Positions 11,709-24,242 of a DNA stretch of 36,949 nucleotides are shown here, one piece after another. The stretch is from a virus: IMG/VR virus record IMGVR_UViG_3300023223_001813, positions 1-36,949 of that record; one strand, given 5' to 3'. Position numbers and translations under genes: made by a program. The notes under the pieces are model-generated. The model was not told the DNA's origin, searched no databases, and was given only the letters and a program-made list of their open reading frames with translations. The first letter of the stretch is position 1. Every line of letters starts with the position of its first letter.

Positions 11709-11986
11709 TTGACAGCCTCCAAATTAAGATTAAAAAATACTTAAACTTAATCGAGTGCCAAATGGTATTTGGAGGGTCCCGAATACTAATTTTCTACTAA
11801 AATCTACTAAATTAGTATTTAGGAGTGCCACCGACTCATGAGGGTCGATGAAAAAAAGATAAATCTTTGCATTACTACCAGAGGATTGCAGAGAATTTTA
11901 TCCACTCCGGTCCTCATTTATAAAAATTTACTACATTTTATGATTTAGTGCAACTATTTTTATATTTCCTGAACGGATGTTTGACG
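11709..11986 (-). promoter_or_regulatory. Gene-free leader of the capsid gene with nested inverted repeats
   Basis: I find no convincing gene in these 278 bases. They hold an 11-bp inverted repeat (AATACTAATTT at 11782-11792, AAATTAGTATT at 11809-11819, loop 16), a shorter dyad CCAAATGGTATTTGG just upstream of the capsid Shine-Dalgarno, and direct copies of GAGTGCCA on both sides. The spacing suggests a structured 5' leader or promoter region for the capsid transcript. No phage-type promoter can be named, and no long U tract marks a terminator. Confidence 0.45.
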
Positions 11987-18068: not shown

Positions 18069-18236
18069 CTAAGAAACAAAATTTTTAAAAACTTCCGGAA
18101 AACGCCAGAGCTTGTATCCGTGGATTGGATCGCAGGCATAAAATCTTCCGGTATGCCACCATGGGAAAGGGCTCGCGTGTCCGGCAATAACTGTTTGCCC
18201 ACAGATTCTACATGCCCTGATCAAGAGCACCTTCAT
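18069..18236 (-). CDS. Small protein with a CRICG zinc-like motif
   Basis: 55 residues from the ATG at 18236 (a longer version would overlap the terminase gene). CRICG near the start followed by one more Cys (FYACD) and His residues could bind zinc, but a full four-ligand set is not clear. Aromatic rich (FPWWHTGRFY). Not recognised; supported mainly by tight packing between neighbours. Confidence 0.45.
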   Translation of the reverse strand: MKVLLIRACRICGQTVIAGHASPFPWWHTGRFYACDPIHGYKLWRFPEVFKNFVS

Positions 18237-18262: not shown

Positions 18263-19787
18263 CTATTTTAACGGGTCCCAACTGGTCTTAACTTTGACCG
18301 GTTTCCGATTTTTCCGTTTATTTCTACCCTGAATGGCCTGATATTCGCCGGAACCAAGGCACAAATATCCAAGAGCATCACAGACATGGGAATATTTCCC
18401 TTTGTCGGGTTTGTCGGCGTATCTTTCGGACCCAACTACCTGCAGGCGTCTATAAACCCATTTCCCCGCTAAACCAGCTCTCAAAACCTTGCACCGCTTA
18501 TTGATCAAAATGCCTGGCTTCCCATCGATCAATCGCGTCATGGGCAACCGTGTACCCTCAATTCTTACTCCAATGGCATTCGTCTGCGCGCCCCTGATCG
18601 GAATTCCCTTTGATTTCATGTGGTTAAAGACCACAGTCTCATATATTTCATCCCTCTTAGATCCAGCCGGGTCCCCCCACCCGTGCTCAATTTCACGTTT
18701 CGGGAACAATTCCGCCATGGTCTTATTGATCTGATTGGTAAATTCTTCGACGCCCATTTCAAAACAAACAATTTCCGCATGGATAAGAATAACTCCCCGC
18801 GGATGACGCTGATAAATTAACGCAGACGGCGATAAAGTGCCGCCGCCAACATCTGCACCGATTCCTAAAGGAACGTTTTTCAATACAGGCAACTCTTCCA
18901 CCGACATCAAATCATCCTTATATTCAGGAATGACAGGCTTTCCATGGCCAACAACACCATATTTGGATTCGTAATAAACCCGAATACGTTCTCTGGTATT
19001 GAACGGCAATTTCTTTTCGTAATAGCGGGTAGGAAGGTTGGGGATATTCTCAGCCACAGGATTGACAACGTACTGTCTGCCTGCGGCTTGAATCACATCT
19101 TTAAATTGATGCGCATTTTTGGAAACATCTACAACAGCGCCCGGCTGGTTAAAAAACTTCAAAGACTTCATGATTTTTTCGCCAGAGGCATCTTCAGGAC
19201 CCCCAAATTCCCAACGATACATCCAATGATCCTCGTCCGGCGGGTTCGTATCCCCAAACATACACGGGCGCGAACACTCCACCCCATGCTTGTCCTCGGC
19301 ACGGTTCGGAAACCGACCCACACGATCCCAACCCGCTAAAATAATGTCCTCTTGAAACTCCCGCATCTCATTCCAAAAAAATATGCGAAACGTTCAACGA
19401 CAAAAGTTTCCTCACATCTTTCGGCTGGTCCATTGCCAAAAAAAATACTTCGCAATCCAACTCTCCAGGAATTTTAATGTGCTGCGATATCGGAGGCGTC
19501 CCGCCAATCAAACCAAAAACACCCTCAGGAAAATTCTCCTTCCAAGTCTGAATAGTCGTTGTCTTCAGCTCAGCATACGTGTTCCGCAAAACCACAGGCC
19601 GCGTATACCTAACACCATCATTAGGAGACCGCTCCTGTGCCATAGCAATTTGAAGAACTTTGAAAACTGAAGCGGTCGTCTTCCCAGACCCCACTGGACC
19701 CTTCACAATACAAACATCCGACAGGTCAAACATATAGTCAGCCAAAGTCGGAACATACTTGAAATCTAATGTCGGCATCCTAGCCAT
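18263..19787 (-). CDS. terL: Large terminase subunit, interrupted by a one-base frameshift
   Basis: Two frames, 19368-19787 and 18263-19366, give one terminase if one base of the T7 run (plus A run 19375-19381) is removed; the joined product is about 507 residues (T7 gp19 has 586) and reads SHIFWNEMREFQEDI across the joint. Residues 30-37 (GPVGSGKT) are the Walker A motif of the packaging ATPase. The C-terminal part has ADVGGGTLSPSALIYQ, fitting the first acidic residue of the RNaseH-fold nuclease, followed by other Asp-containing blocks (GWGDPAGSKRDE, SHVCDALGYL). Either a sequencing or replication slip in the homopolymer or a real +1 shift. A -1 shift at the U run would not reach the second frame. 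Confidence 0.88.
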
Positions 19788-21193: not shown

Positions 21194-21604
21194 CTAATCG
21201 TGGCATGGGAAGGCTTCCGTTAATGCTGAAACTATCAAACCCGGTGAAGTTTTATGTAAATCATTCGGATTGGCAAATAAATGTTTTTCAATTATCATTA
21301 CCATTTGAACCGTCGTAACGGTTTTGGGGATACAATAATGGTCTAGATAGGGTAAATATTTAGCATGCGTTTCTAGCCCAAGAAACTCAAAAGATTTATC
21401 AATATACCATTGTTGGTAGGCTATGCCAGAAAACACTCCAGTAATATAACTTACGCACGCATTTTGATCGCTGATCACTTTACTACTACAAATATTCAAT
21501 AACCCGTTTCCTGTGTGTAGATTATACCCCTCAGCGGGTGCTTTTCCACTCCCTAGCCAAAAGACAAAAAAGCAAATCGCAGAGATGGCCATCTTTTTAT
21601 TCAT
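21194..21604 (-). CDS. Rap1a/Tai-like secreted protein
   Basis: 136 residues with a signal peptide (KK, then AISAICFFVFWLGSG, cut near APA-EG). The mature part has the Rap1a/Tai plan: NGLLNIC, then ACVSYITGVFSG, then YCIPKTVTTVQMVMIIEKHL, NPNDLH, and a final ALTEAFPC. Cysteines are spaced as in that family, whose founders (Serratia) neutralise T6SS amidase effectors in the periplasm. On a prophage it could protect the lysogen from rival bacteria or modulate a cell-wall amidase. Family resemblance is good; the substrate is unknown. GGAGG precedes the ATG. Confidence 0.75.
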   Translation of the reverse strand: MNKKMAISAICFFVFWLGSGKAPAEGYNLHTGNGLLNICSSKVISDQNACVSYITGVFSGIAYQQWYIDKSFEFLGLETHAKYLPYLDHYCIPKTVTTVQMVMIIEKHLFANPNDLHKTSPGLIVSALTEAFPCHD

Positions 21605-21605
21605 T

Positions 21606-21815
21606 TTATTTGCCTCCTTTTACATATAAATGGAATGATGGATCATCATATTGCATGCAAGCCTGGATAAATCCAAGCCAGTCGCAATCGCACGCCGATT
21701 CATAGCAGAGCTTAGAAACTATCAACTTCCAAGTAAATTGAAAGTTTTTATCTTCGCGGATTTTGTTTCCGCATTCCAAAAGCCACGCCTTAACCTCCGG
21801 CTCGTCAATGATCAT
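21606..21815 (-). CDS. Small Cys/Trp-rich hypothetical protein
   Basis: 69 residues with a CDCDW cluster and acidic N-terminus (MIIDEPEVKAWLLECG). Overlaps the Arc-like regulator gene by 11 bases and is followed after one base by the Rap1a-like gene, so all three are co-transcribed from the 22.1 kb promoter. Not recognised. Confidence 0.5.
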   Translation of the reverse strand: MIIDEPEVKAWLLECGNKIREDKNFQFTWKLIVSKLCYESACDCDWLGFIQACMQYDDPSFHLYVKGGK

Positions 21816-22032
21816 CTGACTTTAATCCCTCCATTTTTTCGTAGCCTCCAACGATTTCATATAGAAAATCAATAATTTGTGCGTTCCTGTTGCGCCTCTC
21901 TGCTGTCGCTATCCTGTTAATTCTTTCCAACAATGGGAGAGGGATTTCAAGCTGCACTCTAAATTTCCCCACAGACTCTAAATGTTGTGCTGTTCTATCC
22001 CTGACAATAGTTTTTACTTCATTGTTTTCCAT
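21805..22032 (-). CDS. Arc/MetJ-type ribbon-helix-helix regulator
   Basis: 75 residues from the ATG at 22032, which has AAGGA 7 bases upstream. KFRVQLEIPLPLLERINRIA followed by ERRNRNAQIIDFLYEIV is the ribbon (alternating polar residues) and two helices of Arc-type repressors, with RN..Q..I as in phage Arc. It sits next to a divergent promoter with paired TAGTAATTT half-sites, so autorepression and control of the plus-strand genes at 22255-22740 is likely. Confidence 0.78.
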   Translation of the reverse strand: MENNEVKTIVRDRTAQHLESVGKFRVQLEIPLPLLERINRIATAERRNRNAQIIDFLYEIVGGYEKMEGLKSDDH

Positions 22033-22049
22033 AACGTTATCCTTCAAAC

Positions 22050-22123
22050 ACTAATCCGTTAGTAATTTATTATTGTCATTTTAGTGTTTTCCTATTGACA
22101 AGTCAATAAGAAATTACTATATT
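22050..22123. promoter_or_regulatory. Back-to-back sigma70 promoters with paired operators
   Basis: Plus strand: TTGACA (22095-22100), 17 bases, TATATT (22118-22123). Minus strand: TTGACT (plus 22101-22106), 17 bases, TAAAAT (plus 22078-22083). The two -35 boxes abut. TAGTAATTT (22060-22068) and its inverse AAATTACTA (22111-22119) lie downstream of one -10 and over the other, and ACTAA-TCCG-TTAGT (22050-22063) is a further dyad, all suited to a ribbon-helix-helix repressor. Confidence 0.8.
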
Positions 22124-22130
22124 GCTCTTA

Positions 22131-22240
22131 CCATGAGCGGACACTCAATACTACATTCATACTCGTCCATCCTTCGCAGCCAGAGCTTGTCCGCTCATGG
22201 CGTGTCATTTATTTGGCACTGCGGAGGGTGGGCTTTTTTT
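22131..22240 (+). ncRNA. Leader RNA with two interlocked helices ending in a U7 tract
   Basis: Begins at the expected start of the 22118 promoter. Helix a: CCATGAGCGGACA (22131-22143) with TGTCCGCTCATGG (22188-22200), 13 perfect pairs. Helix b: GTCCATCCTTCGCAG (22165-22179) with CTGCGGAGGGTGGGC (22219-22233), 15 pairs including three G-U, followed at once by T7 (22234-22240). The arms alternate a, b, a', b', so the helices form a pseudoknot or exclude each other. Helix b plus U7 looks like an intrinsic terminator just before the Shine-Dalgarno of the next gene. It may be an attenuator or a stand-alone small RNA. Confidence 0.6.
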
Positions 22241-22254
22241 ATTGGAGAAATATC

Positions 22255-22413
22255 ATGAACGAGTTAGAAAGTTTGGCGTCATCACTTGAGACAGACTATA
22301 CGCCAACCGACAACGACCTAGATGATATCGAAAGAATGATCGAACAAGGATTTTTAGAAGGCGAAGTAGATTCCTACTGGGATGAAAAAGAATTCGCTTT
22401 AGAACTCGTTTAA
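22255..22413 (+). CDS. Very acidic small protein, possible DNA mimic
   Basis: 52 residues from the ATG with GGAGAAA upstream. Contains 17 Asp/Glu and only 2 basic residues (net about -15), for example DNDLDDIERMIEQGF. First gene after a strong promoter and structured leader. Size and charge recall early phage proteins that mimic DNA or block host nucleases, such as T7 Ocr or some anti-CRISPRs, but there is no sequence match I can name. An antitoxin-like role is another option. Confidence 0.6.
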   Translation: MNELESLASSLETDYTPTDNDLDDIERMIEQGFLEGEVDSYWDEKEFALELV

Positions 22414-22430: not shown

Positions 22431-22631
22431 ATGAAGAAGTTTAAAATTCTACATAAAGGAACTTTTAAAGGCGCTCAACCTGTACTCAGTAACATTGAGG
22501 CTTCATCTTGGTTCGATGCAATATTTTCACTTCAAATGGATCACGGCAAACACAGAGAAATATTAAAAATAAGTCCACTGATTAAAAAGAAAAGACTAGA
22601 ACACTATGAAAGGGGATTTTCTAATGAATAA
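22431..22631 (+). CDS. Small hypothetical protein
   Basis: 66 residues, basic, with ASSWFDAIFSLQMDHG in the middle and a KKKRLEHYERG end. GGGGGTG lies 7 bases before the start. Second gene of the plus-strand trio; its stop overlaps the next start. Not recognised. Confidence 0.5.
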   Translation: MKKFKILHKGTFKGAQPVLSNIEASSWFDAIFSLQMDHGKHREILKISPLIKKKRLEHYERGFSNE

Positions 22632-22740
22632 AAAAACAAGATTATGCAAAGAAATCTTTTCACAGCTTCGACTGCTCTATTGGATGGTCACATTTAATTT
22701 AGCCTTTACAATCGGGCTCTTATGGAAAATATTTTCCTAG
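22624..22740 (+). CDS. 38-residue single-span membrane protein
   Basis: Starts inside the end of the preceding gene (8-base overlap). Basic N-terminus (MNKKTRLCKEIFSQLR) followed by one hydrophobic span (LLYWMVTFNLAFTIGLLW). The coupling supports expression. Candidates for its role are superinfection exclusion or membrane signalling, but this is a guess from topology. Confidence 0.45.
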   Translation: MNKKTRLCKEIFSQLRLLYWMVTFNLAFTIGLLWKIFS

Positions 22741-22750
22741 TTAAGGGGTC

Positions 22751-22792
22751 CTTTTTGCACCTCCAGGCGGTCTTTTAGCACCTCCAGGCGGT
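22751..22792. repeat. Two tandem 21-bp repeats
   Basis: GCACCTCCAGGCGGTCTT occurs at 22757-22774 and 22778-22795, within units of 21 bases. Each carries CACCTCC, identical to part of the 16S rRNA anti-Shine-Dalgarno tail, and T-rich stretches precede each unit. They close the plus-strand trio and may act in termination or translation control. Confidence 0.5.
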
Positions 22793-22808
22793 CTTAAATC
22801 GAATAGGG

Positions 22809-23016
22809 TTTAGCGAAGCCGTCAACTTGTTATTAATGAATGGTTTAAGGTTATTTGACGCTAAAAATTGTGGTAGTTTACGAAATGGCTTCCCCAGTTG
22901 TGCGTGTACCAAAGACCCGACCCTAGGACGTGGCCGTGTCACTTCACTAGAAGTGCCTTTATCGCCACGGTGCGTAGGGAGAAAGGTCTACGCAGTCCCC
23001 GAAGGGCCACACGTCC
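22809..23016 (-). ncRNA. Candidate structured RNA, strand uncertain (minus favoured)
   Basis: About 210 bases with no convincing gene and dense complementarity. Part A: TTTAG (22809) with CTAAA (22861) and CGTCAA (22820) with TTGACG (22855). Part B is a closed domain: GGACGT (22926-22931) with ACGTCC (23011-23016), CACTTC (22940) with GAAGTG (22950), TGCGTAG (22971-22977) with CTACGCA (22988-22994), and a CCC/GGG hairpin at 22998-23006 that on the minus strand reads C(UUCG)G, an extra-stable tetraloop. It matches no RNA class I know. Confidence 0.45.
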
Positions 23017-24024: not shown

Positions 24025-24099
24025 TACGCCTGGCGGGACTCGAACCCGCAACCATACGGAGTAGAAATCCGATAAGCTATCCAGTTGCTTCACAGGCGT
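24025..24099 (-). tRNA. tRNA-Arg (anticodon UCU)
   Basis: A cloverleaf folds on the minus strand: acceptor ACGCCTG/CAGGCGT (7 bp), D stem AAGC/GCTT, anticodon loop TTTCTAC giving UCU, T stem and loop GCGGG-TTCGAGT-CCCGC. The anticodon stem has one T-T mismatch at its base. CCA is not encoded. UCU decodes AGA, a codon often rare in hosts, so it may aid phage translation. It is 560 bases from the attP but is complete and distinct from the tRNA-Asp fragment there. Confidence 0.88.
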
Positions 24100-24126
24100 T
24101 CATTTCTCCCTTAAAAACTTTTACCA

Positions 24127-24242
24127 CATTTTAAACCACATTCGACCATGACGCCTACCGGGCGGAAAACGACTTGTCGAAGCCCATTTAAACCACTTTA
24201 AACCATGATGTCCACCGGGCGGAAAACAGATTCGTCGAACCC
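24127..24242. repeat. Two-copy 58-bp tandem repeat
   Basis: Copies at 24127-24184 and 24185-24242 share CATTTTAAACCAC-like starts, ACCATGA, then CACCGGGCGGAAAAC/TACCGGGCGGAAAAC and GTCGAA near the end. No gene covers them. They lie between the tRNA and the lipoprotein gene; could be protein-binding iterons, a relic of duplication, or part of an origin. Confidence 0.6.

Follow-up and report, generated by a model that had tools for sequence, protein, structure and literature searches.

Does a phage leader in which two long helices interlock directly behind a divergent promoter, the second of them followed by a run of uridines just ahead of a ribosome site, serve as a regulated attenuator of the genes behind it, or is it the body of a small RNA with a separate function? 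The locus that raises this question lies in a virus record of 36,949 bases, the whole of which is referred to below as the window. The phage is temperate and podovirus-like, with portal, terminase, primase-helicase and integrase genes found, and the switch region is located at the point where leftward and rightward transcription part, with the terminase small subunit region on one side and the integrase on the other. The interlocked-helix leader stands there next to a divergent promoter that is likely protein-controlled and, should the RNA act as the sequence leads one to expect, would offer a compact case of RNA topology controlling termination in a phage switch.

The two promoters of the switch are sigma70-like, both have spacers of 17 nucleotides, and their -35 boxes abut exactly at 22100/22101. 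The rightward promoter (TTGACA-17-TATATT, 22095-22123, + strand; -35 box 22095-22100, -10 box 22118-22123) matches the consensus at 11 of 12 positions, and the leftward one (TTGACT-17-TAAAAT, 22078-22106, - strand; -35 box 22106-22101, -10 box 22083-22078) at 10 of 12, in agreement with the first-pass annotation of this DNA, which had proposed two consensus-like promoters in this arrangement. Because the -35 boxes abut, simultaneous binding by two polymerases would hardly be possible, and the promoters are unlikely to be occupied together. A promoter scan of the AT-rich 3 kb returned 16 sites against 7.7 expected, and the weight is therefore carried by the promoter pair and by neither promoter singly. 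From the normal promoter spacing we infer that the rightward RNA starts at A22130, one base before the first helix of the leader.

A good candidate for the operator is an inverted repeat spanning 22060-22119, whose 16-nt arms TAGTAATTTATTATTG (22060-22075) and CAATAAGAAATTACTA (22104-22119) are complementary at 15 of 16 positions; when the 100-bp intergenic region was shuffled 1000 times with its dinucleotides preserved, one shuffle held a repeat as good. Inside it lie the inverted TAGTAATTT sites that had been noticed earlier at or near both -10 boxes and that are indeed there: the copy at 22060-22068 is found about 10 nt downstream of the -10 box of the leftward promoter, at the expected leftward start, and the inverted copy at 22111-22119 overlaps the -10 box of the rightward promoter by 2 nt. 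A second inverted repeat, AAACACTAA (22046-22054) and TTAGTGTTT (22081-22089), extends over 22046-22089 around the -10 box and start of the leftward promoter. The proposal of a second switch, with divergent promoters and operator-like repeats, is supported; the coordinates first given for it needed a shift of a base or two and are otherwise right.

The leftward gene of the switch (ORF 21805-22047, - strand, opening at TTG) encodes a putative ribbon-helix-helix (RHH) regulator of 75 aa when read from its ATG (21808-22032), with a codon score of 0.148 that is typical of the genes of this phage. Its residues 25-51 match RHH_1 at E 0.038, which is sub-threshold (14.4 bits against the Pfam cut-off of 20.5), and the match is placed where the strand-helix-helix is expected. 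A single-sequence model of the protein contains helices at residues 32-43 and 46-68 and a strand without confidence (mean pLDDT 63), and the model had no fold match at E up to 0.001. An RHH identity is likely, if weakly supported by these data; of the Arc-type repressor that had been proposed here, the small leftward ORF stands and the family assignment is weak.

On the rightward side, the transcript would begin with a structured leader, a candidate small RNA of about 111 nt (22130-22240, + strand). Helix a joins CCATGAGCGGACA (22131-22143) to TGTCCGCTCATGG (22188-22200) through 13 Watson-Crick pairs, and helix b joins GTCCATCCTTCGCAG (22165-22179) to CTGCGGAGGGTGGGC (22219-22233) through 15 pairs, of which 9 are G-C and 3 are G.U. 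Read from the presumed start, the leader consists of the 5' arm of helix a from +2, 21 nt, the 5' arm of helix b, 8 nt, the 3' arm of helix a, 18 nt with a 6-bp hairpin, the 3' arm of helix b, the U7 tract (22234-22240), AUU, GGAG and AUG. The arms of the two helices are disjoint and interlocked. The alternating 13-bp and 15-bp arms described by the first-pass annotation were recovered, as was the U7 tract after the second helix and ahead of the ribosome site; alternating here means interlocked rather than mutually exclusive, since the arms share no base.

No other uninterrupted helix on the + strand of the window is as low in energy as helices a and b. With the energy of the weaker helix in the best interlocked pair as the statistic, the leader reaches -24.4 kcal/mol against a best value of -12.8 kcal/mol in 2000 shuffles of the 112-nt RNA, and the next-best interlocked pair in the window also reaches -12.8 kcal/mol (2632 segments of 112 nt, both strands). 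The fold of 22130-22241 (112 nt) has a z-score of -6.1, none of 200 shuffles being equally stable. The interlocked structure of the leader is real and far beyond chance; at other loci, interlocked helices were mostly in GC-rich DNA and had no U tail. Helix b departs from Watson-Crick pairing at three positions, each a U.G wobble in the + strand RNA that would be an A-C mismatch on the opposite strand; we estimate the chance of this outcome at about 1 in 200 if imperfections are spread evenly over the 12 mismatch types. Because they are all G.U on that strand, selection probably acts on the + strand RNA rather than on the DNA. No Rfam family (C4, isrK and riboswitches where included) matched at its gathering threshold or, for the leader, when E was relaxed to 5, which agrees with the earlier statement that no named RNA has this arrangement.

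Since their arms do not overlap, helices a and b can, as modelled, coexist as an H-type pseudoknot with stems of 13 and 15 bp and loops of 21, 8 and 18 nt, or b can form without a. The minimum-energy nested fold brings helix b (14 pairs) together with two hairpins in a three-way junction that has no unpaired base: P2 (22179-22201), which has 8 bp, a bulged A22197 and the loop TTGTCC, lies inside b and uses the 3' strand of helix a (a'), and P3 (22202-22219), the 6-bp hairpin GTGTCA/TGGCAC, completes the junction. This nested fold has -46.3 kcal/mol, compared with about -45 kcal/mol for the pseudoknot of a and b by a rough Dirks-Pierce-type estimate in which P3 is uncounted. When the growing transcript is folded step by step, helix a is favoured up to about 22226, and from about 22230 onward the b fold takes over, which suggests an element built for a to close first and for b to be completed as the polymerase reaches the U tract. 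Helix a and P2 compete for the a' strand, and the models indicate that a could hinder b only by topology or by holding this strand of P2. The earlier idea that helix a may block or shape helix b is possible in either of these forms and fails as base-pair exclusion.

Helix b and the U7 tract together have the form of an intrinsic (Rho-independent) terminator, a 15-bp stem with its 9 G-C pairs being followed by U7 from the next base, and the terminator score d is positive at about +36. A mechanical terminator scan, whose model allows only short loops, reported none at helix b. The loop of helix b has 39 nt and is itself folded, and a simple scanner misses the helix because this loop is too long. 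The initial description of a strongly structured leader, ending in a terminator-like helix and U7 just upstream of the first ribosome site, is borne out by these features.

Three small genes follow on the + strand, and none of their products belongs to a recognised family. The first (22255-22413; ATG at 22255, GGAG at 22244-22247) encodes an acidic protein of 52 aa and has a codon score of 0.20, like true genes; the second (22431-22631) encodes a protein of 66 aa; the third (22624-22740) is an ORF for a hydrophobic peptide of 38 aa (44 aa from an upstream ATG), which looks by its sequence like a single membrane helix and has a weak codon score. When the read-through mRNA was folded, the ribosome site was not clearly sequestered by the leader. 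The ends of the 52-aa ORF are complementary to each other (22258-22271 and 22397-22410, 12 of 14 positions, predicted pairing probability about 0.98), and the domain closed by this pairing is no more stable than shuffles (z -0.3); this pairing of the ORF ends, if it forms as predicted, could reduce translation. The small operon is closely followed, at 22744-22803, by a tandem repeat of about 21 nt that contains the octamer GCACCTCC, which resembles an anti-Shine-Dalgarno sequence. Further on, at 22925-23015, a GC-rich non-coding stretch has the potential for a branched fold in which GGACGUG.../CACACGUCC enclose two inner hairpins; its overall z is only -0.8, and it has no Rfam match.

How far does this anatomy fit a regulated attenuator, in which one and the same leader would switch between termination and read-through, with helix a or some factor delaying or blocking helix b? 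The terminator-like helix b stands immediately before the ribosome site of the first gene of the operon, helix a is the first to form, and its 3' strand is also needed by P2 within the nested b fold. The factor might be a phage or host protein, a small molecule, a translating ribosome or a second RNA on a free a arm. The leader matches no riboswitch or leader family of Rfam, and neither a ligand nor a protein is evident. A leaderless leader peptide was considered in the form of a 41-aa ORF (22133-22258) that overlaps the first gene by ATGA; its codon score of -0.18 is below every true coding stretch tested (percentile 0), and a leader peptide is unlikely because this ORF is non-coding by codon use. 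A classical attenuator is rejected because helices a and b share no strand: the arms 22131-22143/22188-22200 and 22165-22179/22219-22233 have no overlap, exclude no base pair of each other and can form together, and only P2 shares a'. We consider the regulated attenuation proposed by the first-pass annotation, taken in the wider sense, unlikely, albeit a serious contender; the alternative that the annotation also offered, a pseudoknotted small RNA, is no worse a match to the anatomy.

A simpler possibility is that helix b and U7, as a plain strong terminator, keep rightward transcription out of the small genes in the prophage by stopping transcripts from this promoter or from upstream, with helix a serving as a 5' stabiliser. 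The strong stem and the U7 tract are what such a terminator would have. Its position right after its own strong promoter and before the ribosome site would silence its own operon, however, and helix a, with 13 perfect pairs from +2 that interlock with b, far exceeds the needs of a terminator, so that this explanation appears quite improbable to us.

It is also conceivable that the inverted repeats are binding or recombination sites at the DNA level rather than RNA structure. Arm a (GAGCGGACA...TGTCCGCTC) forms a perfect inverted repeat, of which a nine-base form is present in 9 viral contigs and many times in one of them, L092. By our estimate, nine such contigs are about what chance would give, and within the window the motif is not repeated elsewhere (6 one-mismatch matches against 5.0 expected). 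Moreover, helix b is imperfect only through wobble pairs, which exist on a single strand, and the element runs from the position where transcription is expected to start as far as U7; a DNA element is very improbable. A type III toxin-antitoxin-like locus, in which a pseudoknot RNA and a terminator precede a toxin gene, would share the order of promoter, pseudoknotted RNA, terminator and gene, and is hardly credible for a leader that has no tandem repeats of an RNA unit and is followed by proteins of 52, 66 and 38 aa that match no family.

The explanation that we favour, and to which we give about an even chance, is a terminated and stable leader RNA with leaky read-through into the three small genes and with an RNA role of its own, in a layout most like that of IsrK. 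According to this explanation, the small leftward DNA-binding protein, probably of the RHH type, would bind the TAGTAATTT inverted repeat and, once bound, would set the balance of the two divergent promoters. Rightward transcription would begin at A22130, and the nascent RNA would first close helix a with the 5' end inside. The 3' arm of helix b would emerge next and pair with the b arm held in the loop of helix a, and helix b with U7 would then act as an intrinsic terminator. Most transcripts would end at about 22234-22240 and leave a very stable RNA of about 105-111 nt, whose ends would either be locked in the interlocked helices of the pseudoknot or, in a three-way junction, include an unpaired 5' tail. 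The remaining, less numerous transcripts would read through and express the three small genes. By analogy with IsrK, the short RNA is probably functional in itself, with a target in trans or in its read-through mRNA, although it may do no more than set the level of read-through. No complement of the leader was found in the downstream genes, and a search for a trans target in the phage genome gave nothing better than chance, with one perfect complement of 12 nt (18104-18115, - strand) lying inside an ORF.

At the isrK-orf45-anrP locus of Gifsy-1, a promoter is followed by a structured short RNA, a Rho-independent terminator and read-through into a 45-aa ORF and further genes, and the short RNA pairs with the 3' part of orf45, acts on its own read-through mRNA and activates it (PMC4825925). 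The present prophage locus likewise has a promoter directly followed by a structured RNA with a terminator-like end, a tiny first ORF (45 aa there, 52 aa here), alternative leader structures and further genes after read-through, here by sequence anatomy only. In contrast to IsrK, which pairs with the 3' part of orf45, the long helices of our leader interlock within the short RNA; there is neither a sequence nor an Rfam match between the two, and no antirepressor-like gene was recognised downstream.

Other phage systems combine some of the same elements. The C4 antisense immunity RNA of P1 is an untranslated leader that contains segments complementary to one another and whose operon is terminated prematurely. 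The CI RNA of P4 is a phage leader of the same kind (PMC4825925). The leader described here resembles both in its internal complementary segments and putative premature termination, whereas each of its arms has a single partner, its helices have 13-15 bp, and C4 does not match it in Rfam at E up to 5. In immI of P22 (Arc/Mnt, ant, sar RNA), an RHH repressor, divergent promoters and a small RNA share one control region, as do the regulator gene, divergent promoters and candidate small RNA here, with the regulator being RHH by a sub-threshold match; sar is antisense to ant, whereas the RNA here is in sense with its operon. In terminator riboswitches with pseudoknots, such as fluoride and preQ1-I, a helix or pseudoknot on the 5' side forms ahead of an intrinsic terminator located downstream and affects it, and here, too, an early 5' helix is predicted to form before the terminator helix. 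Unlike in those riboswitches, helix a and the terminator helix share no strand, the leader has no Rfam match, and the operon consists of unknown phage proteins that give no ligand.

No homologues of the RNA, the regulator or the downstream proteins were found in the phage, plasmid and viral-contig collections searched; the queries that returned no relatives of the module were the regulator, the 52-aa and 66-aa proteins, the gene at 21194-21604, the integrase and the DNA. Patterns of both helices found no homologue at the DNA level, and a covariance model of the nested fold matched the window itself and otherwise gave only chance-level matches. A borderline match in the plasmid collection (E 0.3) covers 41% of the RNA. 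The number of matches to the arm a pattern was about that expected by chance, and the one locus caught by the pattern of the 3' arm of helix b (L095, 6598-6617) is an ordinary short terminator before a ribosome site. Relatives of the phage were sought by its terminase and primase-helicase, and the genome collection was searched with the terminase alone. The nearest relatives by large terminase (L002 and L003, 84 and 80%) end before the switch region; L004 (58%), which reaches that region, does not have the module, and neither of two distant terminase relatives from the genome collection has the RNA. In the collections searched, the interlocked-helix module appears to be an orphan. In the L092 contig, TTGAGCGGACA recurs many times and in either orientation over some 250 bp (650-890); as far as seen, this striking cluster is unrelated to the leader RNA.

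If the favoured explanation is true, the leader would add to the few phage leaders that double as small RNAs, which are mainly enterobacterial (P4, P1, Gifsy-1). A stronger claim, which we regard as rather unlikely, would be that it represents a new RNA class: a self-interlocking RNA of about 110 nt that would serve as a stable small regulatory RNA and at the same time terminate its own operon, and in which closure of the 5' helix would set read-through by topology and strand competition, with no shared terminator strand.

Several further features of this genome were observed. The large terminase gene (18263-19787, - strand) is present as two ORFs, 19368-19787 and 18263-19366, with a frame change at the HIFLE/MREF junction, across which L002 and L003 have one uninterrupted frame; an assembly or sequencing error is the likeliest cause, with a programmed frameshift as a less probable alternative. 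Upstream of the major capsid gene, at 11784-11819, there is an inverted repeat TACTAATTT/AAATTAGTA with repeated CTACTAAAATCTACTAAA, and a similar element is located in L003 at 2831-2870, directly after TerL. Near the integrase, the stretch 24025-24240 holds a tRNA-Arg(TCT) gene on the - strand with two copies of a TTTTCCGCCCGGTRGRCRTCATGG-like repeat just upstream, and these are possibly related to the attachment site.
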